Shown here in pieces: positions 28,432-58,961 of a stretch of 64,000 nucleotides of DNA (position 1 is its first letter; every line of letters starts with the position of its first letter). The position numbers and the translations under genes were made by a program. The notes beneath the pieces are model-generated. The model was not told the origin of the DNA. It worked only from the letters and a program-made list of their open reading frames with translations, and ran no database searches. Origin of the DNA: an uncultured bacterium (lineage in GTDB: Bacteria; Bacillota; Clostridia; Oscillospirales; Oscillospiraceae); the NCBI GenBank assembly GCA_947073515.1, contig CAMTMC010000002.1, positions 1 through 64,000 of the forward strand, given 5' to 3'.

Positions 28432-29973
28432 TTGGCTGACATTATTTTGGAAATGAAGTCCATCACCAAGGAATTTCCCGGCGTCAAAGCCCTGGACAAC
28501 GTGAATCTAAAGGTGGAGGCCGGGGAGATCCACGCCCTGATCGGGGAGAACGGGGCGGGCAAGTCCACCCTGATGAACGTGCTGTCGGGCACCTACCCCA
28601 TTGGCAGCTACGAGGGCGAGATCTACTACGAGGGCAAGCTGTGCCAGTTTAAAACCCAGAAGGACAGCGAGGCCCAGGGCATTGTCATCATCCACCAGGA
28701 GCTGGCCCTGATCCCCCTGCTGTCCATCGGGGAGAACATGTTCCTGGGCAACGAGATCAAAAACCGCATGGGCTACATCGACTGGGACAAGACCTACAGC
28801 GAGTCGGAGCGCCATATGCGCCAGGTGGGCCTGAACGAGTCCGCCCAGACCCTGGTGAAAGACATCGGCACCGGCAAACAGCAGCTGGTGGAGATCGCCA
28901 AGGCCTTCTCCAAAAAGGTGAAGCTGCTCATCCTGGATGAGCCCACCTCCTCCCTCAACGACGAGGACGCCAAAATGCTGCTGGATCTGCTCATTGAGTT
29001 TAAAAAGGAGGGCCTCACCTCCATCATCATTACCCATAAGCTCAACGAGATCATCTACTGCGCCGACAAGGCCACCATCATCCGGGATGGCTCCACCATT
29101 GAGACCCTGGTCAAGGGGGTGGACGAGTTCAGCGAGGACCGGATCATCAAGGGCATGGTGGGCCGGTCCATGGAGGACCGCTACCCCACCCGGGACCACA
29201 ACGTCCAGGACGAGGTCAACCTGGAGGTCAGGAACTGGACGGTCCATCACCCCCTGTACCCCGAGCGGGTGGTGGACGACAACATCTCCTTCCACATCCG
29301 CAAGGGCGAGGTGGTGGGCTTCTCCGGCCTGCAGGGCGCGGGGCGCACCGAGCTGGCCATGTCCATCTTCGGCCGCAGCTACGGCACCGGCATTACCGGC
29401 GAGCTGTACATCGGGGGCCAGAAGGTGGATCTGAAGTCCCCCCAGGAGGCTATCCGCCACAAAATCGCCTATGTCACCGAGGACCGGAAGACCAACGGCC
29501 TGATCCTGGACGAGTCCATCCGCTTCAACACCACCCTGGCCCGGCTGGACAAGGTGTGCAGGGGCGGCGTCATCGACACTGACCAGGAGGTCGGGGTGGC
29601 CGAACAGATGACCAAAGACATGGGCACCAAAACCCCCACCATCGAGCAGAACGTGGGCAACCTGTCCGGCGGCAACCAGCAGAAGGCCCTGCTGGGCAAG
29701 TGGATGTTCACCGAGCCGGACATCCTCATCATGGATGAGCCCACCCGGGGCATCGACGTGGGCGCCAAATACGAAATTTACTGCCTCATCAACCAGATGG
29801 TGGCTCAGGGCAAATCGGTGATGATGATCTCCTCCGAGCTGCCCGAGCTGCTGGGCATGTGCGACCGCATCTACGTAATGAACGAGGGCCGCCTGCTGGC
29901 CCAGCTGGACGCCAAGGACGCCACCCAGGAGGGCATCATGGGCTACATCATCCGGGACACCGCCAAGGCGTAA
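28432..29973 (+). CDS. Multiple monosaccharide ABC transporter ATP-binding protein (GguA-like)
   Basis: 513 residues from a TTG at 28432, with GAGAGGAGG eight bases upstream. Two fused nucleotide-binding domains of the CUT2 class: NBD1 has Walker A GENGAGKS, a signature-like GTGKQQ block and Walker B LLILDEPTS; NBD2 has the usual altered Walker A (GLQGAGRTE), LSGGNQQK and LIMDEPTRG. It energises sugar import with the permease encoded downstream. The long in-frame extension toward 28198 overlaps the previous gene in another frame and is not coding. Confidence 0.92.
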   Translation: MADIILEMKSITKEFPGVKALDNVNLKVEAGEIHALIGENGAGKSTLMNVLSGTYPIGSYEGEIYYEGKLCQFKTQKDSEAQGIVIIHQELALIPLLSIGENMFLGNEIKNRMGYIDWDKTYSESERHMRQVGLNESAQTLVKDIGTGKQQLVEIAKAFSKKVKLLILDEPTSSLNDEDAKMLLDLLIEFKKEGLTSIIITHKLNEIIYCADKATIIRDGSTIETLVKGVDEFSEDRIIKGMVGRSMEDRYPTRDHNVQDEVNLEVRNWTVHHPLYPERVVDDNISFHIRKGEVVGFSGLQGAGRTELAMSIFGRSYGTGITGELYIGGQKVDLKSPQEAIRHKIAYVTEDRKTNGLILDESIRFNTTLARLDKVCRGGVIDTDQEVGVAEQMTKDMGTKTPTIEQNVGNLSGGNQQKALLGKWMFTEPDILIMDEPTRGIDVGAKYEIYCLINQMVAQGKSVMMISSELPELLGMCDRIYVMNEGRLLAQLDAKDATQEGIMGYIIRDTAKA

Positions 29974-49357: not shown

Positions 49358-50863
49358 ATGTGTGAAACCATCGTATCCATGCGGGGAATCTGCAAGAGCT
49401 TCCCCGGCGTCAAGGCCCTGGATCATGTGGACTTTGACCTCCGCTCCGGCGAGGTCATGGCCCTGCTGGGAGAGAACGGAGCGGGCAAAAGCACCCTGAT
49501 GAAAGTGCTCAGCGGCGTGTACCAGCGGGACGAGGGGACCCTGGAGATCTTCGGGAAACAGTACGGGGACCTGAACCCCAAGCTGGCCCAGGAGGTGGGC
49601 GTGGCGATTATCCACCAGGAGCTGAATATGTGCAGGCACCTGTCCGTAGCGGAAAATATGTTCCTGGGCAGGGAGAAGCGCAAGGGCATCCGGCTGGACA
49701 ACGCCAGCATGGAGGCCGAGGCCAAGGGCATCCTGGACGAGCTGAAAATCGACCTGGACCCCCGGCAGGTGGTGGGCGAACTGCCGGTTTCCAAGCAGCA
49801 GATGGTGGAGATCGCCAAAGCCCTGTCCACCCAGGCCAAGGTGCTGATTATGGATGAGCCCACCTCCGCCCTCACCGCCCGGGAGATCGATGACCTGTTC
49901 CGCATCATCCGGGAGCTGAAAGCCAAGGGCTGCGGCATTGTGTATATCTCCCACCGGCTGGAGGAGCTGCAGCACATCGTGGACCGGGTGACCATCATGC
50001 GGGACGGCCAGTACATCACCAGCATGGACTTCCAGCAGGTGTCCCTGGACGAGATCATCGCCTACATGGTGGGCCGGGAGATCAAGGAGAAGTTCCCCCG
50101 GGTCAGCTGCGAGAAGGGGAAGAAGGTCTTTGAGGTCAAGGGCCTCAACGCCGGGCGCATGGTGCGGGACATCGACTTCGCCCTGTACGAGGGGGAGATC
50201 GTGGGCTTCGCCGGGCTGATGGGCGCCGGACGGACCGAGACCACCCGGGCCATCTTTGGGGTGGACCCCAAGGACAGCGGCCAGATCATCCTGGACGGAC
50301 AGGAGGTCACCATCAAAAGCCCCAGGGACGCCATCCAGGCGGGCATCGTCCTGGCCCCGGAGGACCGGAAGAAGGACGGCCTGTGTACCAAGCTGTCTAT
50401 CCGGCACAACATCGCCCTGCCCAACCTGGACTTCCTGTGCGATAAATTCGGCGTGATCCAGTGGGGCAAAGAGGCCGAGACCTGCGCCAAAGCGGTGCGG
50501 GACCTGAAGATCAAGACCCCCACCGTGGAGGTCAACGCGGCCAACCTGTCCGGCGGCAACCAGCAGAAGGTGGTGGTGGGCAAGTGGCTGGCCCGGAACT
50601 CCCGGGTGGTCATCTTCGACGAGCCCACCCGGGGCATCGACGTGGCAGCCAAGGTGGAGATCTACCACCTGATGAACCAGCTGAAGCAGCAGGGCATCGC
50701 CGTCATGTTCGTCTCCTCCGAAATGCCCGAGGTCATGGGCATCGCCGACCGGATCATCGTCATGTGTGACGGGCGGATCACCGGCGAGCTGATGGCGGAG
50801 GACGCCACCCAGGAGAAGATCCTCTCCCTGGCCACCCAGTTTGAGAAGAAAATCGCCATCTAA
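49358..50863 (+). CDS. CUT2 sugar ABC transporter ATP-binding protein (RbsA-like)
   Basis: 501 residues. Tandem NBDs: NBD1 with Walker A GENGAGKST, signature-region LPVSKQQMVEIAKAL and Walker B LIMDEPTSAL; NBD2 with GLMGAGRTE in place of Walker A, LSGGNQQKVVVGKWL and VVIFDEPTRG. This is the normal state of active RbsA-type proteins. It drives sugar import with the permease and binding protein encoded next. The ribosome site before 49358 is poor (GAGG directly adjacent, GGAAG 13 bases away). Confidence 0.92.
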   Translation: MCETIVSMRGICKSFPGVKALDHVDFDLRSGEVMALLGENGAGKSTLMKVLSGVYQRDEGTLEIFGKQYGDLNPKLAQEVGVAIIHQELNMCRHLSVAENMFLGREKRKGIRLDNASMEAEAKGILDELKIDLDPRQVVGELPVSKQQMVEIAKALSTQAKVLIMDEPTSALTAREIDDLFRIIRELKAKGCGIVYISHRLEELQHIVDRVTIMRDGQYITSMDFQQVSLDEIIAYMVGREIKEKFPRVSCEKGKKVFEVKGLNAGRMVRDIDFALYEGEIVGFAGLMGAGRTETTRAIFGVDPKDSGQIILDGQEVTIKSPRDAIQAGIVLAPEDRKKDGLCTKLSIRHNIALPNLDFLCDKFGVIQWGKEAETCAKAVRDLKIKTPTVEVNAANLSGGNQQKVVVGKWLARNSRVVIFDEPTRGIDVAAKVEIYHLMNQLKQQGIAVMFVSSEMPEVMGIADRIIVMCDGRITGELMAEDATQEKILSLATQFEKKIAI

Positions 50864-50877
50864 GGAGGGCTGAAAGA

Positions 50878-51897
50878 ATGAATACCACAAAACCAAATCC
50901 CTTAAAGCGGGTTTTAAGCACCCGGGGCATGGGCGGGGCGCTGACGGCGTTCGCCGGGCTGATCGTGATCTACATTGCCTTCGGCATCATCAACCCCACC
51001 GTGTTCTCCGGGCAGAACATCATGAACCTGCTGCGCTCCATGTCCAAATACCTGCTCATCGGCATCGGCCAGAGCTACATTTTGATCACCGGCAACATTG
51101 ACCTGTCCATCGGCTCGGTGGCGGGCATGAGCGCCATGGTCTCCGCCACCCTGATGACCATGGGGGTCCACCCCATCGCCGCCATCCTGGTCACCCTGAT
51201 CTGCTGCCTGTGCATCGGCGCGCTCAACGGCCTGCTGGTGGGCAAGTGGAAGTTGCCCCCCTTCATCGCCACCCTGGGCACCATGTTCGTGGCCCGGGGC
51301 GTGGCCTACATCGTCAACGGCAACCGGAATACCGACGCCATCGCCTCCGGCATCGGCAAGGAGGCGGCGGACACCTTCGGCAACTTCTTCTACTACGGCT
51401 CCACCCTGGGCATCTACAACACCTTCTGGATCGCCATAGCCCTGTTTGTGGTATTTTTCTTCCTGCTGTCCGGCACCCGGACGGGCCGCCACATCTACGC
51501 CATCGGCTCCAATGTGGACGCGGCCAAGCTGTCCGGCGTCAGCGTGCTGGCCACCACCACCAAGGCCTATCTGGTCAGCGCCTTCTGCTCCTGCGTGGTG
51601 GGCCTGATCTTGTGCGGGCAGGCCGGCATGGGCAACATGGAGGCCGGCAACATGTATGAGATGTACGGCGTGGCCGCCGGCGTCATCGGCGGCGTGTCCC
51701 CCCTGGGCGGCACCGGCATCCTGCTGGGCACCCTGGCCGGCGCGGCCGTGTGGCAGACCCTGGAGAACGGCCTGAACATGATCGGCGCCCAGGTGGGCAT
51801 CCAGCGGCTGGTCATCGGCATCATCGTGGTAGGGGCCGTGTTCCTGGACGTGGTGGTCCGCAACGGCGCCCGGAAGAAGCCCGCCAAGGCCGCCTGA
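50878..51897 (+). CDS. CUT2 sugar ABC transporter permease (RbsC-like)
   Basis: 339 residues, about eight to ten membrane helices; AAGGAGG eight bases before the ATG. RbsC landmarks: LITGNIDLSIGSVAGMSAM, KLPPFIATLGTMFVARGVAYIVN, AIGSNVDAAKLSGVSV and GVSPLGGTGILLGTLAGA. Fourteen bases after the ATPase gene, so co-transcribed. Confidence 0.92.
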   Translation: MNTTKPNPLKRVLSTRGMGGALTAFAGLIVIYIAFGIINPTVFSGQNIMNLLRSMSKYLLIGIGQSYILITGNIDLSIGSVAGMSAMVSATLMTMGVHPIAAILVTLICCLCIGALNGLLVGKWKLPPFIATLGTMFVARGVAYIVNGNRNTDAIASGIGKEAADTFGNFFYYGSTLGIYNTFWIAIALFVVFFFLLSGTRTGRHIYAIGSNVDAAKLSGVSVLATTTKAYLVSAFCSCVVGLILCGQAGMGNMEAGNMYEMYGVAAGVIGGVSPLGGTGILLGTLAGAAVWQTLENGLNMIGAQVGIQRLVIGIIVVGAVFLDVVVRNGARKKPAKAA

Positions 51898-51955
51898 ACC
51901 AACGGGAATTAGACACCGCCAGGTGCTAATTATAAAAAAACTAGGAGGATTTGAA

Positions 51956-52876
51956 ATGAAGAAGCTCACAGCGATTCTGTGCGCCGCCTGTCTGATGCTC
52001 ACCGCCATGACCGGCTGCGCCAAGCAGGGCAATCCCAGCCAGAGCGGCGGCTCTGACGGCATGATCGCCCTGATCACCATGGACTCCATCGACCAGCACT
52101 GGATCACCCTGAACGAGGGCGCCCAGAAGGCGGCCGGCGAGCTGGGCGTCACGGTCCAGTTCATGTCCCCCAACACCAAGGACGACGCCCAGCAGATTGA
52201 GTGCGTCAACAACGCCGTCAGCGCGGGCGCCAAGGCCATCATCGTGGCCGCCAACGGCCCGGACGCCATCTCCTCCGCCCTGAAAGAGGCCAAGGACAAG
52301 GGCGTGAAAATCGTCTACGTGGACTCCCCCGCCAACGTGGAGGCCGAGGCCACCTTCTCCACCGACAACAAGGCCGCCGGCAAGACCGCCGGCGAGGAAA
52401 TGCTCAAGGCCCTGGAGGCCAAGGGCGTCACCTCCGGCAAGATCGGCATCATCAACGTCAACGCCGCCACCGACTCCTGCGTCATGCGGGAGGAGGGCTT
52501 CCGCTCCGCCTTTGAGGGCAGCGGCTTCGAGCTGCTGGAGACCCAGTATGGCGAGGGCGACGCCGCCAAATCCCAGTCCATCGCCGAGAACTACATCACC
52601 CAGGGCGTTGTGGGCATCTTCGGCTGTAACGAGGGCTCCACCACCGGCGCCGGCAACGCCATCAAGGCCAACGGCAGCGCTGACATCATCGGCGTGGGCT
52701 TCGACAAGTCTGACGCCATCCTGGGCCTCATTGACGACGGCTATCTGCTGGCCACCATGGCCCAGAACCCCGACGTGATGGGCTATGAGGGCGTGAAGGC
52801 CGCCGTGAAGGCCATCAACGGCGAGAGCCTGGGCGGCGCTGTCACCGACACCGGCGTGTCCGTGCTCACCAAATAA
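51956..52876 (+). CDS. CUT2 sugar-binding lipoprotein (RbsB-like)
   Basis: 306 residues from the ATG at 51956, with AGGAGG upstream. Lipobox AMTGC (Cys21). Ribose-type binding fold: ALITMDSIDQHWITLNEGA, VNNAVSAGAKAIIVAANGPDAI, VDSPANVEAEATFSTDNKAAGK, GCNEGSTTGAGNAI and GVGFDKSDAI. It captures the sugar for the ATPase and permease encoded upstream. Unusually for this family the gene is last, and it is followed by its own structured terminator before the signalling genes. Confidence 0.92.
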   Translation: MKKLTAILCAACLMLTAMTGCAKQGNPSQSGGSDGMIALITMDSIDQHWITLNEGAQKAAGELGVTVQFMSPNTKDDAQQIECVNNAVSAGAKAIIVAANGPDAISSALKEAKDKGVKIVYVDSPANVEAEATFSTDNKAAGKTAGEEMLKALEAKGVTSGKIGIINVNAATDSCVMREEGFRSAFEGSGFELLETQYGEGDAAKSQSIAENYITQGVVGIFGCNEGSTTGAGNAIKANGSADIIGVGFDKSDAILGLIDDGYLLATMAQNPDVMGYEGVKAAVKAINGESLGGAVTDTGVSVLTK

Positions 52877-52892
52877 AACTCCATAAACCCCG

Positions 52893-53020
52893 ACAGGAAC
52901 GCCGGTTTTCCGGGGGAGTGTCCAGACAGCGAAGTTTTTATTGGGGTTTCCCCCGCCTCCGGCGGGGGAAACCCAGGAATAAATCTTCTCAGTGGGCACT
53001 CCCTTTTCCGGCGTTCCTGT
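52893..53020. repeat. Nested inverted-repeat element / compound terminator
   Basis: Outer arms ACAGGAACGCCGG/CCGGCGTTCCTGT (52893-52905 and 53008-53020) enclose GGAGTG/CACTCC and a 14-bp central hairpin (52944-52957 with 52961-52974). The order and shape resemble the element at 17674-17799. It separates the transporter genes from the YesN gene. Confidence 0.7.
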
Positions 53021-53120: not shown

Positions 53121-54695
53121 ATGTGGAAGGTTATTATCGCGGATGACGAGAAGCTGATCTGCCGGCTGATCGAGGCGCTGGTGGATTGGGACGCTCTTGG
53201 CATGGAGATCGTGGGCAAGGCGGAGAACGGGCTGGAAGCCCTGGATATGGTGCGGGATCTGCGGCCCCACCTGCTCATCACTGACATCCGTATGCCCGGC
53301 TGCGACGGGTTGGACCTGATCCGCCAGGCCCGGGAGCTCAGTCCGGAAATCGAGATCGTCATCATCAGCGGATACGCCCATTTTGAGTACGCCCAGACCG
53401 CCATCGCCTACGGGGTGGGCAACTACATCCTCAAGCCGGTCAACCAGGCCGAGCTGAACAAGACCCTGCAAAAGATCATCCTCCGCCTGGAGGAACGAGG
53501 CCATCGGGAGCGCCAGGCCGGCGGGGACGGCGGCCAGAGCGCCCCCCAACGCCTCCGGGAGGAGCTGATCCGGGATCTGCTGGACGGGAAGCGGGAATTC
53601 ACCCCGGCGGAGCTGGCCCAGGCCTACCAGTTCCATACCCAGGGCCGTCAGCTCCAGACCTTCCTCCTGAAGCTGGACCTGGAGGGAGACGAGCTGTCCA
53701 GCCCGGCCCGGGCCATCATCCGGCAGAAGGCGGAGGAGATGTTCCAGGCCGCCGTGCTGCCCGCCTGCGAGGAAGGGGCGCTGTATCTCTGGAACTTCGC
53801 GGGGTACGGCCTGCTCGCCTATCCCCCCGGGGAGGAGGACCGGGTCCGCCGGAGCCTGCGGGAGCTGCTCAATCAGCTGCAGGCCAACAAAAGCCTGTTC
53901 GGCCCGGTGGAATTTACCATCGGCCTGGGCCCCGCCATCCAGGAGATCCGGGAGCTGGCGGACTCTATGGATTCCGCCCAGCTGGCGGCGGCGGAACGGC
54001 TGATCGAGGGCCGGGGCCGGATGCTGGAGGGGGTTCCCCCCGGCTCCGACCTGCCCCGCCAGGCGATTTTGACCCGGTATACCAAGCTGGTGGACCATGG
54101 GATCGAGCTTCTGGACCGGGAGACCCTGCGCCTGGCCCGGGAGGGCCTGCGGGCCGGGCTGCTGGCCGTGCCCAAAGTGCGGGGCCGGGAGATCTTTGAG
54201 CTGGTGCTGGACGCGGGGAAGGTCTTTGCCCTGCGGGCGGGGGCCGGCGACGGGGCGGCCCAGGTATTCCAGCGGCAGTGCCGCCAGCGGGGACGGATGG
54301 AGCTGCTGTTCCAGGCCCTGGAAGAGCTCCACACCCAGACCCTCCAGGAGCTGAGGGAGCGGCAGGAGAGCGAGACCGCCCGGCCCATCCGCATGGCCAA
54401 GCAGTTTATCCAGGAGAACTACGGGCGCAACATCACACTGGAGGATGTATGCGGGGCGGCGGGCTTCAGCCCCGCCTATTTCAGCGCTCTGTTTAAGAAG
54501 GAGACTGGGGAGGGCTTTTCCAAGTACCTGACCCAGGTGCGGATCAACCGGGCCAAGGAGCTGCTGCGGGAGACCGGCCTGTCTGTGGCGCAGGTGTGCG
54601 AGGCGGTGGGGTACAGTGACCGGAAGCACTTTACCCAGACCTTCCACAAGATGACCGGCGTGAATCCCGCGGAATTCCGCCGGCTCTACGGCTGA
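53121..54695 (+). CDS. YesN-type response regulator (REC-linker-AraC)
   Basis: 524 residues. REC (about 1-125, IIADDEKLI, TDIRMPGCDG, Asp55, KPV), a long central linker (about 130-410) and a C-terminal AraC double HTH (about 425-524, FIQENYGRNITLEDVCGAAGFSPAYFSALFKKETGEGFSKYL and VCEAVGYSDRKHFTQTFHKMTGVNP). It partners with the YesM kinase encoded next (TGATG overlap). In this family the regulator activates nearby sugar-uptake genes, so the target is probably the RbsABC-type operon upstream or the isomerase/kinase genes downstream. Confidence 0.92.
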   Translation: MWKVIIADDEKLICRLIEALVDWDALGMEIVGKAENGLEALDMVRDLRPHLLITDIRMPGCDGLDLIRQARELSPEIEIVIISGYAHFEYAQTAIAYGVGNYILKPVNQAELNKTLQKIILRLEERGHRERQAGGDGGQSAPQRLREELIRDLLDGKREFTPAELAQAYQFHTQGRQLQTFLLKLDLEGDELSSPARAIIRQKAEEMFQAAVLPACEEGALYLWNFAGYGLLAYPPGEEDRVRRSLRELLNQLQANKSLFGPVEFTIGLGPAIQEIRELADSMDSAQLAAAERLIEGRGRMLEGVPPGSDLPRQAILTRYTKLVDHGIELLDRETLRLAREGLRAGLLAVPKVRGREIFELVLDAGKVFALRAGAGDGAAQVFQRQCRQRGRMELLFQALEELHTQTLQELRERQESETARPIRMAKQFIQENYGRNITLEDVCGAAGFSPAYFSALFKKETGEGFSKYLTQVRINRAKELLRETGLSVAQVCEAVGYSDRKHFTQTFHKMTGVNPAEFRRLYG

Positions 54696-55765
54696 TGGGG
54701 GCGGATATGAGGCGCGGCAAGTTTAAATACCTGTCCAAGCGGCTGCTGGCGGCGGGGGCGGCGGCCCTCCTTCTCAACACCGGGTCGCTGGTCCTGCTCT
54801 GCGGGGCGGCGGCCAGGCTGGGGATCCGCTGGTGGTACTGGGTCTCGGCGGGGGCGGCGGCGCTGCTCCTGCTGCTGTGGGGGACGGCCCGCTGGATTGT
54901 CCGCCCCTTCCTCCACCTGGAACGGGAAAGCCAGCTGTTTTTGAAGGGCTACGCCCCCAACCGTCCCCCGGAGGAGGAGAGCGTCTTTTTCTCCCCCTCC
55001 AGCCGCCAGGTATGGGAGTATCTGCGGGGGATGCTGAATTCCTCCAAGCTGATGGAGCTGAACAAGCGGCAGGCCCAGTATCTGGCCTTGCAAAATCAGA
55101 TCAACCCCCACTTCCTCTACAACACCCTGGAGAGTATCCGCAGCGAGGCCCTGGTGGCCGGGCTGACGGCGCTGGCGGAGATGACCGAGGCCCTGGCCAG
55201 CTTCTTCCGCTACACCATCAGCAAGGTGGAAAACCTGGTGTCGGTGGAGGAGGAGCTGCAAAACTGCGAGACCTACTTTAAAATCCAGCGCTACCGCTTT
55301 GCCGAGCGCCTCCAGCTCACCATTGAGTATGACAGCGAGGAGCGGGAGGAGATTTTCCTCTGCCGCCTGCCCAAGCTGACCATGCAGCCCATTTTAGAGA
55401 ACAGCATCATCCACGGCACAGAGTGCAAAATCGGCACCGGGCACTTGAAAATCCATCTGGAGCGGACGGGCAAGCTGCTGCTCATCCGGATCTCCGACGA
55501 CGGGGTGGGGATGGACGAGCAAACCCTGGCCCGGATGAACAGTCAGCTGCAGCAAAGCGCCCGGGCCATCCCCTCCCAGAACGCCCAGGCCGAGGGGGGC
55601 ATCGCCCTGCGCAACGTCAACAACCGGATCCATCTGCTGTTTGGGGAGGAGTACGGCCTGCGGGTGTTCTCCATGCCGGGGGTGGGCACCGACGTGGAGA
55701 TCCTTTTGCCGGCCATCACCAGCGACAGGGACGTCCCCAACAAGGAGGCGCTACGCTCCCTGTAG
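54695..55765 (+). CDS. YesM-type sensor histidine kinase lacking an extracellular domain
   Basis: 356 residues; usual YesM proteins have 550-600. Two membrane helices (about 17-38 and 46-69) are joined by only about seven residues (around RLGIR), so no Cache sensor is present. The catalytic part is normal: NQINPHFLYNTLESIR with phospho-His139, LQPILENSIIHG-type N-box (MQPILENSIIHG), SDDGVGMD and GGIALRNVNNRI. Start at 54695 shares a base with the YesN stop; an ATG at 54707 is possible. It must receive its signal from a membrane partner, plausibly the transporter or the degenerate ABC protein encoded next. Confidence 0.9.
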   Translation: MGADMRRGKFKYLSKRLLAAGAAALLLNTGSLVLLCGAAARLGIRWWYWVSAGAAALLLLLWGTARWIVRPFLHLERESQLFLKGYAPNRPPEEESVFFSPSSRQVWEYLRGMLNSSKLMELNKRQAQYLALQNQINPHFLYNTLESIRSEALVAGLTALAEMTEALASFFRYTISKVENLVSVEEELQNCETYFKIQRYRFAERLQLTIEYDSEEREEIFLCRLPKLTMQPILENSIIHGTECKIGTGHLKIHLERTGKLLLIRISDDGVGMDEQTLARMNSQLQQSARAIPSQNAQAEGGIALRNVNNRIHLLFGEEYGLRVFSMPGVGTDVEILLPAITSDRDVPNKEALRSL

Positions 55766-55774
55766 GAGGGATAT

Positions 55775-57262
55775 ATGCGAAACGAGATACTGCGCATGGA
55801 TCAGGTGACCTACGACAGCCAGGGGGTGGCCCAGCTGGACAACTTCAGCCTGTCCATGTGGGAGGGGGAAATCCTGGGCCTGGTGCCCGTCAACAACTAC
55901 GGGGTGGAGGCCCTGTTCTCCCTGCTGACCCAGAACCTCCCCCTGCGGGGCGGCTATGTCTACTACCGGGAGAAGCTGGTGAACGACTGGCACAGCCCCT
56001 GCCGGGGGAGCAACCGAGTCAGCGTGATCCGGAATGAGAGCTGCCTGGCCAAGGACCTGACGGTGGCCGACAACATCTTTGTCCTGCGGCCGGGCTTCCG
56101 GAAGTGGAGGATCCGGCCCCGGATCCTCCGGGAACAGCTGATCCCCTTTATCCAGGAGATCGGCGTGCCCATCCGGGCGGACGCCTACATCGACGAGCTC
56201 ACCCCCTTCCAGCGGTTTGTGGTGGAGCTGCTGAAGGCGATTGTGGCGGGCAGCCGGCTGATCGTGCTGGAAAATGTGGACGCCTTTATCAGTGAGAGCG
56301 AGCTGGCCAAGCTCCAGGAGATCCTCCTCCACTACGCGGAGAAGGGCACCGCCTTTCTCTACCTCTCCGCCCATTTTGAGGAGACCCTGCGCTTCTGCCA
56401 CCGGACGGCGCTGATGTCCAACGGCCGCATTTTGAAATATTTTGACCTGAAGGGCGGCAGCCGGGACATGCTCTGCCTGCCCTGTGTGGAGGACTACGAC
56501 CGCTGGGTCCGGGCCCGGCTGGAGGAGCCCGGCCGGAAGCGGCGGGACACAGCCGTGCTGGAGCTGCGCTCCCTGTGCCGGGGCTCCCTTCGGGATGTGA
56601 GCCTGCTGGTACAGGCCGGGGAGTGCGTGGTGATCCAGGACATGGACAACTGCGCCCTGCGGGATCTTCTCGCCGTTGTACGGACCGGCCGGCGCTCCGC
56701 CGGGGAGATCCTGGTGGGCGGGCGGCCCCTGCGCTCCGGCCTGGACCGGAGCGTCGCCGTTGTCCAAGAGCGGCCCATGGAGACCATGCTCTTTCCCAGC
56801 ATGAGCTATATGGACAACCTCTGTTTCAATATGGACCACCGCTTCCCCCACATCTGGACATCCCGGGGGATGCGCCGGAGCATCCGGGAGGAGTATGGCC
56901 CCCGCCTGGGGGAGGAGGTCTTTGACAAGCGGATCAGCGAGCTGACCAACCGGCAGAAATATGACCTGGTGTTCACCCGCCTGCTGCTGCAGCGGCCCAA
57001 GGTGGTGTTCTGTGTCCACCCCTTCAAGAAGGCAGATGTCTCCATCCGCAGCCACCTGTGGAAGCTGATGGAACAGCTTTTGGAGAAGGACATCGCCGTG
57101 GTGATCCTGGCGGTCAACCTGGCGGACTCCCTGGCCCTGGCGGACCGGCTGATCCGGCTGCGGCAGGGGACGGTCCACGAGGCCTACCAGCGGGAGGACT
57201 TCGCCAAGCTGCCCGCCAGCACGCCGTGGCTGTACCTCTACCAGGAAAAATATCCACAATAG
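55775..57262 (+). CDS. Tandem ABC protein of the RbsA type with lost ATPase motifs (pseudo-ATPase)
   Basis: 495 residues, RbsA length and tandem layout, but the motifs are gone. NBD1: the Walker A position reads VPVNNYGVEAL (about 37-47) with no GxGKS/T, the signature LTPFQRF (142-148) and Walker B LIVLENVDAF (162-171); only the H-loop His200 persists. NBD2: IQDMDNCALRDLL (287-299), LTNRQKYD (390-397), VVFCVHPFKKAD (410-421) and Asn448 at the H-loop. The frame is intact over its whole length, arguing for a selected role. It lies nine bases after the YesM gene. I infer a regulatory subunit that docks on a permease or on the kinase. Confidence 0.85.
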   Translation: MRNEILRMDQVTYDSQGVAQLDNFSLSMWEGEILGLVPVNNYGVEALFSLLTQNLPLRGGYVYYREKLVNDWHSPCRGSNRVSVIRNESCLAKDLTVADNIFVLRPGFRKWRIRPRILREQLIPFIQEIGVPIRADAYIDELTPFQRFVVELLKAIVAGSRLIVLENVDAFISESELAKLQEILLHYAEKGTAFLYLSAHFEETLRFCHRTALMSNGRILKYFDLKGGSRDMLCLPCVEDYDRWVRARLEEPGRKRRDTAVLELRSLCRGSLRDVSLLVQAGECVVIQDMDNCALRDLLAVVRTGRRSAGEILVGGRPLRSGLDRSVAVVQERPMETMLFPSMSYMDNLCFNMDHRFPHIWTSRGMRRSIREEYGPRLGEEVFDKRISELTNRQKYDLVFTRLLLQRPKVVFCVHPFKKADVSIRSHLWKLMEQLLEKDIAVVILAVNLADSLALADRLIRLRQGTVHEAYQREDFAKLPASTPWLYLYQEKYPQ

Positions 57263-57293: not shown

Positions 57294-57980
57294 ATGAGAC
57301 GTTCAGAGATCAACAAGGCCCTGCGGGAGCTGGAGGGGATGTGCGCCAAGCACTGCTTCGCCCTGCCCCCCTTCTGCCACTTCACCCCGGAGCGGTGGCA
57401 GGCCCTGGGCCACGAGTATGACGAGGTCCGGGACTGCATGCTGGGCTGGGACATCACCGACTATGGCAAGGGGGATTTTGACCGCTTCGGCTTCTCCCTC
57501 ATCACCATCCGCAACGGCAACCGGGCCATGGCGGACAAATACCCCAAGGTGTACGCCGAAAAGCTGCTGTATCTGAAGGAGGGGCAGTACGCCCCCAACC
57601 ACTTCCACTGGTACAAGACCGAGGACATCATCAACCGGGGGGGCGGCAATGTCCTCATCCGGGTGTATAACTCCCTGCCCGACGAGGAGATCGACCGGGT
57701 CAGCGACGTGACCGTCCACACCGACGGCCGTACCTACACCGTACCCGCCGGCGCCCAGGTCCGCCTCACCCCCGGGGAGAGCATCCACATCCAGCAGCGG
57801 CTCTACCACGACTTCTCCGTGGAGGAGGGCACCGGCCCCGTGCTGCTGGGCGAGGTGAGCCAGTGCAACGACGACAACACGGACAACCGGTTTAACCCCC
57901 CAGTAGGCCGCTTCCCGGAGATTGAGGAGGACGAGCCCCCCTACCGGCTGCTGTGCAACGAGTACCCGGCGGCAAAGTGA
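57294..57980 (+). CDS. D-lyxose/D-mannose-type sugar isomerase
   Basis: 228 residues from the ATG at 57294, with AAGGAGG upstream. Cupin fold with the metal site HFHWYKTEDI (about 103-112, HxHxxKxE) and a later His in SIHIQQRLYHDF. D-lyxose isomerases of this family interconvert D-lyxose with D-xylulose and D-mannose with D-fructose. LLGEVSQCNDDNTDNRF is a family block. Followed nine bases later by a PfkB kinase, so the ketose is probably phosphorylated next. Confidence 0.87.
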   Translation: MRRSEINKALRELEGMCAKHCFALPPFCHFTPERWQALGHEYDEVRDCMLGWDITDYGKGDFDRFGFSLITIRNGNRAMADKYPKVYAEKLLYLKEGQYAPNHFHWYKTEDIINRGGGNVLIRVYNSLPDEEIDRVSDVTVHTDGRTYTVPAGAQVRLTPGESIHIQQRLYHDFSVEEGTGPVLLGEVSQCNDDNTDNRFNPPVGRFPEIEEDEPPYRLLCNEYPAAK

Positions 57981-57989
57981 GGCGGCGAG

Positions 57990-58961
57990 ATGTTGGATGT
58001 TGTCGCTTGGGGCGAACTGCTCATTGATTTTACCACCCAGAGCACCGATGAATCGGGCTATCCCACCATGGCCGCCCACCCCGGCGGGGCCCCCGCCAAT
58101 TTCCTGGCGGCCCTGGCCAAGTTCGGTGCCAAGACGGCCCTGGCGGGCAAGGTAGGCGCCGATACCTTCGGGAGGATGCTCACCGGCACCCTCCAGAGCC
58201 TGGGGATTGAGACCCGGGGGATCGTGGCCAGCCCGGAGGTGTTTACAACCCTGGCCTTTGTCACCCTGGACCAGCATGGCGACCGGGAGTTCGCCTTCGC
58301 CCGGAAGCCCGGGGCGGACACCCAGATCACCTTTGCGGAATTGGACCTCAGCCTGATCGACGAGACCCGGATCTTCCACTTCGGCACCCTCTCCCTGACG
58401 GACGAGCCGGCCCGGTCCGCCACCCGCCAGGCCGTGGCCTACGCCAAGGAGCGCGGGAAGCTGATCACCTATGACCCCAACCTGCGCAAACCCCTGTGGC
58501 GTGACCTGGACGATGCCAGGGAGCAGTTGCTGTGGGGCCTGGGCCAGGCCGATGTGGTGAAGATCAGCGACGAGGAGGTGGAGTTCCTGTTCGGCCTGTC
58601 CCCGGAGGAGGGGGCGGAGCGGATTTTGAGGGAGTACGGCGTCAAGCTGGTGTTCGTCACCTGCGGGCCGGAGGGCTGTGTGTTCCGGAATCCCAGGGCC
58701 TGGGGACGTGTCCCCGGGCTGTCCGGCCTCCAGGTGGTGGATACCACCGGGGCGGGGGATATCTTCGGGGGCAGCGCCGTGTGGCGGCTCCTGTCCAGCG
58801 GCAAAGCCCCGGAGGAGCTGGACGGGGCGGAGCTGCGGGAGATCACCTCCTTCGCCTGTGCCAGCGCCGGCCTGTCCACCACCCGTCCCGGCGGGATCTC
58901 CAGCGTGCCCGCCTATGAGGAGATCATGGAGCGGCTTTCCGCTCCCCAGAAAATGGAATAG
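57990..58961 (+). CDS. PfkB-family sugar kinase, fructokinase-like
   Basis: 323 residues; GAGGCGGCGAG before the ATG. Ribokinase/fructokinase fold: VVAWGELLIDF, HPGGAPANFLAALAKFG (substrate block typical of fructokinases), YDPNLRKPLW, and the ATP/catalytic signature DTTGAGDIFGG (about 252-262) with the base Asp in GAGD. Likely phosphorylates D-fructose, or a related ketose, made by the isomerase. Cytoplasmic. Confidence 0.88.
   Translation: MLDVVAWGELLIDFTTQSTDESGYPTMAAHPGGAPANFLAALAKFGAKTALAGKVGADTFGRMLTGTLQSLGIETRGIVASPEVFTTLAFVTLDQHGDREFAFARKPGADTQITFAELDLSLIDETRIFHFGTLSLTDEPARSATRQAVAYAKERGKLITYDPNLRKPLWRDLDDAREQLLWGLGQADVVKISDEEVEFLFGLSPEEGAERILREYGVKLVFVTCGPEGCVFRNPRAWGRVPGLSGLQVVDTTGAGDIFGGSAVWRLLSSGKAPEELDGAELREITSFACASAGLSTTRPGGISSVPAYEEIMERLSAPQKME

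Follow-up and report, generated by a model that had tools for sequence, protein, structure and literature searches.

An ATPase-dead RbsA paralogue linked to a YesM-type histidine kinase without an extracellular sensor, beside a CUT2 sugar importer

Background

Transporters that report to histidine kinases are established in the form of BceAB-BceS and Pst-PhoU-PhoR (excerpts of PMC6978683), and so are extra binding proteins that serve sugar-sensing kinases, namely CuaD and XylFII (excerpts of PMC10384115). Control of a CUT2 importer by a local two-component system has been proposed for GxgRS-GxgABC of Caldicellulosiruptor bescii (excerpts of PMC8579813). Here we describe a locus from an uncultured member of the Oscillospiraceae (assembly GCA_947073515.1, contig CAMTMC010000002.1, positions 1 to 64,000; this whole stretch of 64,000 nucleotides is referred to as the window) in which a complete CUT2 importer is followed by a YesN-type response regulator, a YesM-type kinase and a full-length tandem ABC protein that resembles the importer ATPase RbsA and has lost its ATPase motifs. 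The latter is called psABC below, for pseudo-ATPase ABC protein. The relatives collected here give good support to a partnership, beside importer genes, between a kinase lacking an outside sensor and an RbsA paralogue lacking ATPase motifs.

No description of an RbsA-like pseudo-ATPase together with a kinase was found among the matches listed in open PMC full texts, subscription papers lying outside that scope, and the excerpts of PMC8579813, PMC6978683 and PMC10384115 make no mention of a dead ATPase.

Organization of the locus

The operon lies entirely on the forward strand and reads RbsA, RbsC, RbsB, YesN, YesM-type kinase, psABC, D-lyxose isomerase family protein, PfkB kinase. The first six of these are:

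49358..50863, + strand, tandem ATPase of RbsA type belonging to the CUT2 importer, with each of the six catalytic residues scored here present
50878..51897, + strand, RbsC-type permease (BPD_transp_2)
51956..52876, + strand, RbsB-type sugar-binding protein, single domain (a fused double domain in several relatives)
53121..54695, + strand, YesN-type response regulator, 524 amino acids (Response_reg and HTH_18, the AraC-type DNA-binding domain)
54695..55765 (start may be 54707), + strand, YesM-type histidine kinase, 356 amino acids (His_kinase PF06580 and HATPase_c)
55775..57262, + strand, psABC, 495 amino acids, full-length tandem RbsA-like protein without ATPase motifs (hhalign, motif check)

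The reading frames of YesN, the kinase and psABC are all intact, and psABC is preceded by a good Shine-Dalgarno sequence. YesN combines a receiver with an AraC-type helix-turn-helix, the two marks of its type, while the kinase joins PF06580 to HATPase_c as YesM-type kinases do and has intact catalytic H, N and G boxes. The two-component genes and psABC adjoin a complete CUT2 importer (RbsA, RbsC and RbsB at 49358-52876), as an earlier sequence-only reading of the window had stated.

Loss of the ATPase motifs in psABC

Alignment of psABC with RbsA by hhalign extends over 469 columns in both halves (probability 100%, E 1.2e-45), and a single chain of some 500 amino acids with two ABC domains is the layout of the RbsA family. 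Pfam ABC_tran exceeds its cut-off over one stretch of psABC only. The best curated models (XylG, AraG and RbsA) give psABC 104-116 bits, all below the equivalog cut-offs, versus 569-598 bits for the neighbouring true RbsA. Where the first half of that RbsA has GENGAGKST, LPVSKQQ and VLIMDEPT, psABC has PVNNYGVEA, LTPFQRF and LIVLENVD; in the second half GLMGAGRTE, LSGGNQQ and VVIFDEPT are replaced by DMDNCALRD, LTNRQKY and VVFCVHPF. The Walker A lysine, the Walker B Asp-Glu pair, the Q-loop and the signature of the second nucleotide-binding domain (NBD2) are all substituted in the window. The sequence-only reading had described a full-length tandem ABC protein with an intact frame and with Walker A, signature and Walker B destroyed in both halves, which the hhalign result and the motif alignment bear out.

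Six residues were scored across relatives: the Walker A Lys, the Q-loop Gln, the Walker B Asp, the Walker B Glu, the H-loop His and the NBD2 signature. The 122 open reading frames compared comprise 28 full-length psABC and 86 ordinary RbsA, together with seven diverged kinase-linked proteins and one duplicate that do not enter the counts. Neither the NBD2 signature nor the Walker B Asp-Glu pair is kept in any of the 28 psABC. The Walker A Lys is retained in nine, though not in that of the window, the Gln in four, the Walker B Asp in one and the Glu in five (Asp and Glu never together), and no member keeps more than two of the six. By comparison, 85 of the 86 ordinary RbsA from the same collection keep all six, the sole exception, in L023, being a shortened frame. 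The H-loop His is absent at its aligned position from all 28 psABC. At least 90% of the ten rows in psABC alignment A1 have a His one residue beyond this position, and because it is nearly invariant the motif may be shifted rather than lost, so that calling the H-loop destroyed hinges on the alignment.

Ordinary CUT2 ATPases have Arg in place of Lys in the second Walker A in 94% of rows, which suggests that NBD1 and the signature of NBD2 together form their working site; psABC appears to have lost both sides of this putative site. None of 24 psABC rows keeps the Phe found in the 'KSFPG' segment of RbsA, presumably the residue that stacks on adenine.

Selection and new conserved residues

Pairwise ratios of nonsynonymous to synonymous substitution (dN/dS) for psABC are 0.04-0.23 in eight pairs, a ninth being saturated. 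The kinase gives 0.02-0.24 in three pairs (a fourth saturated) and RbsA 0.04-0.09 in three. When columns at least 90% conserved across 85 RbsA rows were scored in 24 psABC rows, psABC kept on average 21% at the 43 catalytic-motif columns versus 54% at the 51 others (Mann-Whitney p 0.0003). In both halves, all 24 rows retain the Asn following the Q-loop. Within the dead motifs psABC has conserved residues of its own, namely Asp in the second Walker A (88%), Pro in the second Q-loop (96%), Tyr in the second signature (92%) and Phe in the second Walker B (96%). Judged by its sequences, this combination of selection and new conserved residues is what a re-purposed protein would be expected to look like.

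The sensor-less kinase

Hydrophobic cores of the window kinase lie at residues 17-35 and 50-68 and are followed by the H-box. No large extracellular domain was found between the helices of this kinase or of the 30 other family kinases by hydropathy cores. The sequence-only reading had likewise placed two helices here without an outside sensor, joined by about seven residues; the missing outside domain is borne out, while the figure of seven is plausible only, because the 19-residue hydropathy cores stand 14 residues apart and loop length depends on where the helix ends are placed. Core gaps are 2-15 residues in all 31 family kinases and likewise in those of L044, L157, L163 and L164. Three ordinary YesM kinases (L160, L162 and L165) have gaps of 260-274 residues. 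Kinases with an outside domain are also found at three loci that have a linked ABC protein, with gaps of 104 (L158), 133 (L159) and 260 (L161) residues.

Conservation of linkage and distribution

The family comprises 31 loci (the window, L016-L023, L041-L043, L120-L137 and L156), all of which except L156 were found by searches with psABC. The kinase gene adjoins psABC in 30 of the 31. At least one CUT2 gene is visible in 27, the sequence examined covering the importer incompletely at L041, L042, L123 and L126. The loci without visible CUT2 genes are L131 and L156, at contig ends, L022, with none in a 17-kb stretch, and L127. The importer is upstream of the trio in the window group and downstream elsewhere, in the order YesN-YesM-psABC-RbsA-RbsC-RbsB (with extra genes in L043); since it can stand on either side, the linkage has outlived rearrangement. 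The earlier reading had named absence of conserved linkage as refuting its proposal; the linkage proved to be conserved, the kinase, the dead ABC protein and CUT2 genes occurring together over many family codes. Frame breaks, which may be sequencing error or decay, interrupt both YesN and psABC in the L022 and L023 assemblies.

The single locus in which psABC is separated from the kinase belongs to genome G927, where psABC follows an ileS-like gene on contig 6 (L127 9114-10568) and YesN-YesM-RbsA-RbsC-RbsB lie on contig 30 (L170 4333-10808). The nearest relative of its psABC, YesN and YesM is in each case L133 among 20 other loci. Either the psABC gene moved and was retained, or the bin is misjoined.

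With profile A1, matches were obtained in 4 of 394 genomes of an order sample, 13 of 391 of a class sample and 7 of 398 of a phylum sample, the three samples overlapping. In the order and class samples, members of the psABC family score at least 357 bits versus at most 270 for ordinary RbsA. As no more than the few best candidates of each genome were scored, misses are possible. A single-sequence search of 250 genomes of the window's own family gave four clear members and a diverged fifth, G047. The loci include Lachnospiraceae, Oscillospiraceae and Lawsonibacter, and the family codes include f1, f5, f23, f32, f46, f49, f62, f66, f127, f194 and f199, of which f127, f194 and f199 are of the same phylum and outside the window's class. 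The kinase is present in all 13 psABC genomes of the class sample. Conversely, a kinase-profile search of 245 genomes gave nine orthologues of at least 436 bits, each with psABC adjoining, one of which (G624) was newly found in this way. Since the search profile itself already contained six of these nine, the independent weight of this result is that no such kinase was found without psABC in the 245 genomes.

A tblastn search of 72,556 plasmid records matched 327, none at 60% identity or more; the 15 matches listed show 25-27% identity, which is the level seen with ordinary RbsA. In the PDB 91 sequences match psABC at E <=0.001, and the 60 listed are single ABC domains of other systems. No PDB match was obtained for RbsA at the strict limit of 1e-60 or for RbsC at 1e-5, and there is one solved PF06580 kinase domain.

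Over 21 loci, the pairwise distances of psABC correlate with those of YesN (0.94), YesM (0.92), RbsA (0.84) and RbsC (0.80), the partial correlations being 0.53 for YesN, 0.28 for RbsA, 0.07 for YesM and 0.05 for RbsC. By mean distance psABC (1.08) diverges like the regulators (YesN 1.09, YesM 0.80), RbsA standing at 0.36.

Other kinase-linked RbsA-like proteins

Further RbsA-like proteins with a similar N-terminus lie near related kinases in L044, L157, L158, L159, L161, L163 and L164. Of the six motif residues they keep 2 (L044), 1 (L157), 0 (L163), 3 (L158), 4 (L161), 4 (L164) and 6 (L159, entered as L110). In L157 (8681-11153) the kinase gene and its degenerate linked ABC gene run towards each other, with an overlap of 56 bases at their 3' ends.

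The linked ABC proteins, with the window family included, separate from ordinary RbsA with a support of 98 (SH-aLRT, the Shimodaira-Hasegawa-like approximate likelihood ratio test) in a quick tree of 68 rows. In a careful tree of 55 rows the same branch has support of 96/85 and is present in 98% of bootstraps, and with two outgroup rows added, which fall among ordinary RbsA, its support is 96. The outgroup was taken from the window's own contig, which carries two more RbsA-like tandem ATPases (window 28441-29898 and G000 C2:69700-71124). The trees support a single origin of the kinase-linked ABC proteins, with long branches. On the kinase side the window family forms one clade (19 rows, 97/99), while the kinases of deeper linked loci intermix with the long kinases of L160, L162 and L165, beside which no tandem ABC gene was found in the stretch examined; the kinases of the wider linked set are thus not one exclusive clade.

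L159/L110 is the least diverged linked ABC protein, with all motifs kept and a kinase that retains its outside part. L161 (4931-12074) has a linked ABC protein with Walker motifs and without the NBD2 signature, which has its own binding protein and permease and lies beside YesN and a 600-amino-acid YesM, a second importer gene set being found on the other side of the two-component genes. L161 is possibly a dedicated sensory transporter, and the layouts of L159 and L161 would fit an origin as a sensory transporter whose ATPase later died. Kinase core gaps of 104, 133 and 260 residues go with 3, 6 and 4 of the six motif residues, and short gaps with 0-2, except in L164 with 4. That loop length tracks ATPase loss in the linked clade is a suggestive lead, coming from just two independent pairs, one of them without a difference.

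Neighbouring genes and repeats

The operon continues downstream of psABC with two genes:

57294..57980, + strand, protein of the D-lyxose isomerase family (PF07385; score under the NCBIfam equivalog cut-off)
57990..58961, + strand, PfkB-family sugar kinase, fructokinase-like (below the NCBIfam cut-off)

These two genes suggest lyxose, mannose or fructose as the sugar of the window group.

In several relatives RbsB is a fused tandem of two domains of about 600 amino acids in all (L016 3235-5190, L017 3410-5194, L041 1293-3107 and L128 3565-5361), the halves in L016 being 89% identical in DNA. Its single domain in the window (51956-52876) and in L023 is either a real loss or an assembly collapse of the repeat. 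The gap between rbsB and yesN (52893-53020) holds a palindromic short interspersed repeat with 40 genome matches listed, both strands and the query being counted.

Discussion

The explanation that we favour, with a probability of roughly 0.6, is that psABC is a dedicated ATPase-dead input subunit of YesM/YesN, descended from an RbsA that was first linked to the kinase and then lost hydrolysis, and that it docks on RbsC. It builds on the intact frames, motif loss, purifying selection, kinase co-occurrence and CUT2 linkage observed above; we infer from these the contacts of psABC with the kinase and permease, the signal, its direction and the regulon. The ATPase of a CUT2 transporter would have become linked to a kinase and then lost ATP hydrolysis, while retaining the fold of RbsA and some of the segments with which RbsA faces the permease. 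Probably docking on the cytoplasmic side of the permease RbsC, where it would compete or alternate with the real RbsA, psABC would relay to the sensor-less kinase whether the permease is idle or is loaded with substrate and cycling, docking or release setting kinase activity. The kinase would then set YesN phosphorylation, and with it expression of the importer and the sugar-isomerase/kinase operon. The sequence-only reading had proposed a transporter-coupled signalling complex in which the pseudo-ATPase reports permease or binding-protein state to the kinase. The kinase-linked pseudo-ATPase of that proposal is upheld by the conserved linkage, while contact with the permease and the reporting of its state, or that of the binding protein, would follow if our explanation is right.

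Several points weigh against this explanation. In the distance data neither permease nor kinase stands out as the protein that psABC would contact directly. A single RbsC would be shared by RbsA and psABC, so that docking would have to be competitive. The near-invariant His by the place of the H-loop leaves room, judged by sequence alone, for some nucleotide-related role. With respect to ancestry, support for the linked grouping is 89 with L110 and six window-family rows and falls to 53 with L110 and L161 alone; L110 is closest by identity to an ordinary RbsA (47%); and the deeper nodes depend on long branches, several members being very long.

The best surviving alternative, which we nevertheless think unlikely, is that psABC senses a cytoplasmic ligand, be it a sugar, a sugar phosphate or a nucleotide bound in a modified pocket, and regulates the kinase directly, with no contact to the permease. 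New conserved residues at the former ATP sites, survival of the Walker lysine in 9 of 28 psABC and distances that tie psABC to YesN/YesM more than to RbsC would all suit such a sensor, yet it leaves unexplained the CUT2 company at 27 of 31 loci, the origin from an importer ATPase and the retention of the Asn after the Q-loop in both halves. Less probable again is a role in transport instead of signalling, psABC blocking RbsC or aiding assembly and being merely co-transcribed with the two-component genes. Its likeness to RbsA along the whole length and its place beside the importer agree with such a role. However, psABC follows the kinase (next to YesM in 30 of 31 loci) with the importer on either side, it diverges at the rate of the regulators rather than that of RbsA, and the kinase is without an outside sensor at all 31 loci. 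Intramembrane-sensing kinases typically have just such a pair of helices with a minimal loop, and the family kinases could accordingly be imagined to sense through their membrane helices alone, psABC only stabilising them; we hold this to be improbable, as it would not explain the steady retention of a 460-500 amino acid RbsA relative, apparently even after relocation in G927. That psABC is a decaying or misassembled RbsA paralogue without function deserves hardly any credence, for although all ATPase motifs are gone and two of the 31 loci (L022 and L023) have broken psABC and YesN frames, there are 28 full-length intact frames, low dN/dS and new conserved residues. A pseudogene or chance product was ruled out by the intact frames, dN/dS and the family-wide motif loss, and an assembly error by the agreement of independent genomes.

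Returning to psABC as an input subunit, a tentative extension, to which we give slightly less than even chances, is that the linked proteins form a 'signalling RbsA' family of importer ATPases captured by two-component systems and caught at several stages, in which the captured ATPase would have replaced the outside domain of the kinase, so that the kinase would now sense the inner face of the importer. The proposed stages are an intact ATPase with an outside-sensing kinase (L159); Walker motifs intact, signature lost, and its own binding protein and permease (L161); Walker motifs intact, signatures and Q-loop lost (L164); and a fully dead protein with a sensor-less kinase (the window family, L044, L157 and L163).

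If the favoured explanation is true, evolution has made a signalling subunit without catalytic activity out of the ATPase of an ABC importer. This would offer a direct way to ask how cells measure sugar import instead of sugar concentration, and the surviving intermediates would make the path from motor to sensor testable. Care should also be taken in annotation, as the name 'sugar ABC transporter ATP-binding protein', when assigned by similarity, can fall on proteins unable to power transport.

Comparison with known systems

The kinase BceS has a minimal outside loop, as does the window kinase. A further likeness is that BceS needs its ABC transporter in order to sense (excerpts of PMC6978683). 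The Bce sensor is, however, a working exporter, whereas here there is a separate ATPase-dead paralogue, a CUT2 transporter and a PF06580 kinase; no Bce-type permease is among the eight window proteins scanned, in which a CUT2 importer was found (BPD_transp_2, Peripla_BP_4, ABC_tran). The loose comparison with BceS-BceAB drawn in the sequence-only reading is therefore fair as an analogy only, both kinase family and transporter family being different. PstSCAB-PhoU-PhoR resembles the proposed arrangement in passing from a nutrient importer through a cytoplasmic adaptor to a kinase without a canonical outside sensor (excerpts of PMC6978683). Contact there differs in including the transporter's own ATPase, PstB. 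Unlike psABC, the Pst adaptor PhoU is not known to be an ABC protein.

XylFII-LytS and CuaD-CuaS-CuaR share two-component control of a sugar ABC importer and a spare transporter-derived part, and CuaR is of the YesN/AraC type; in the excerpts of PMC10384115, however, the spare part is a binding protein touching a large outside domain of the kinase, whereas the spare part of the present system is a cytoplasmic relative of an ATPase and the kinase has no outside domain. With RbsA, XylG and AraG psABC shares its length and tandem layout over the 469 alignable columns, and it differs from them in lacking ATPase motifs and in adjoining a kinase, the importer having a working-type RbsA of its own. 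We regard psABC-YesM-YesN as a variant of transporter-coupled two-component signalling that is novel as far as the matches listed in the open literature show.

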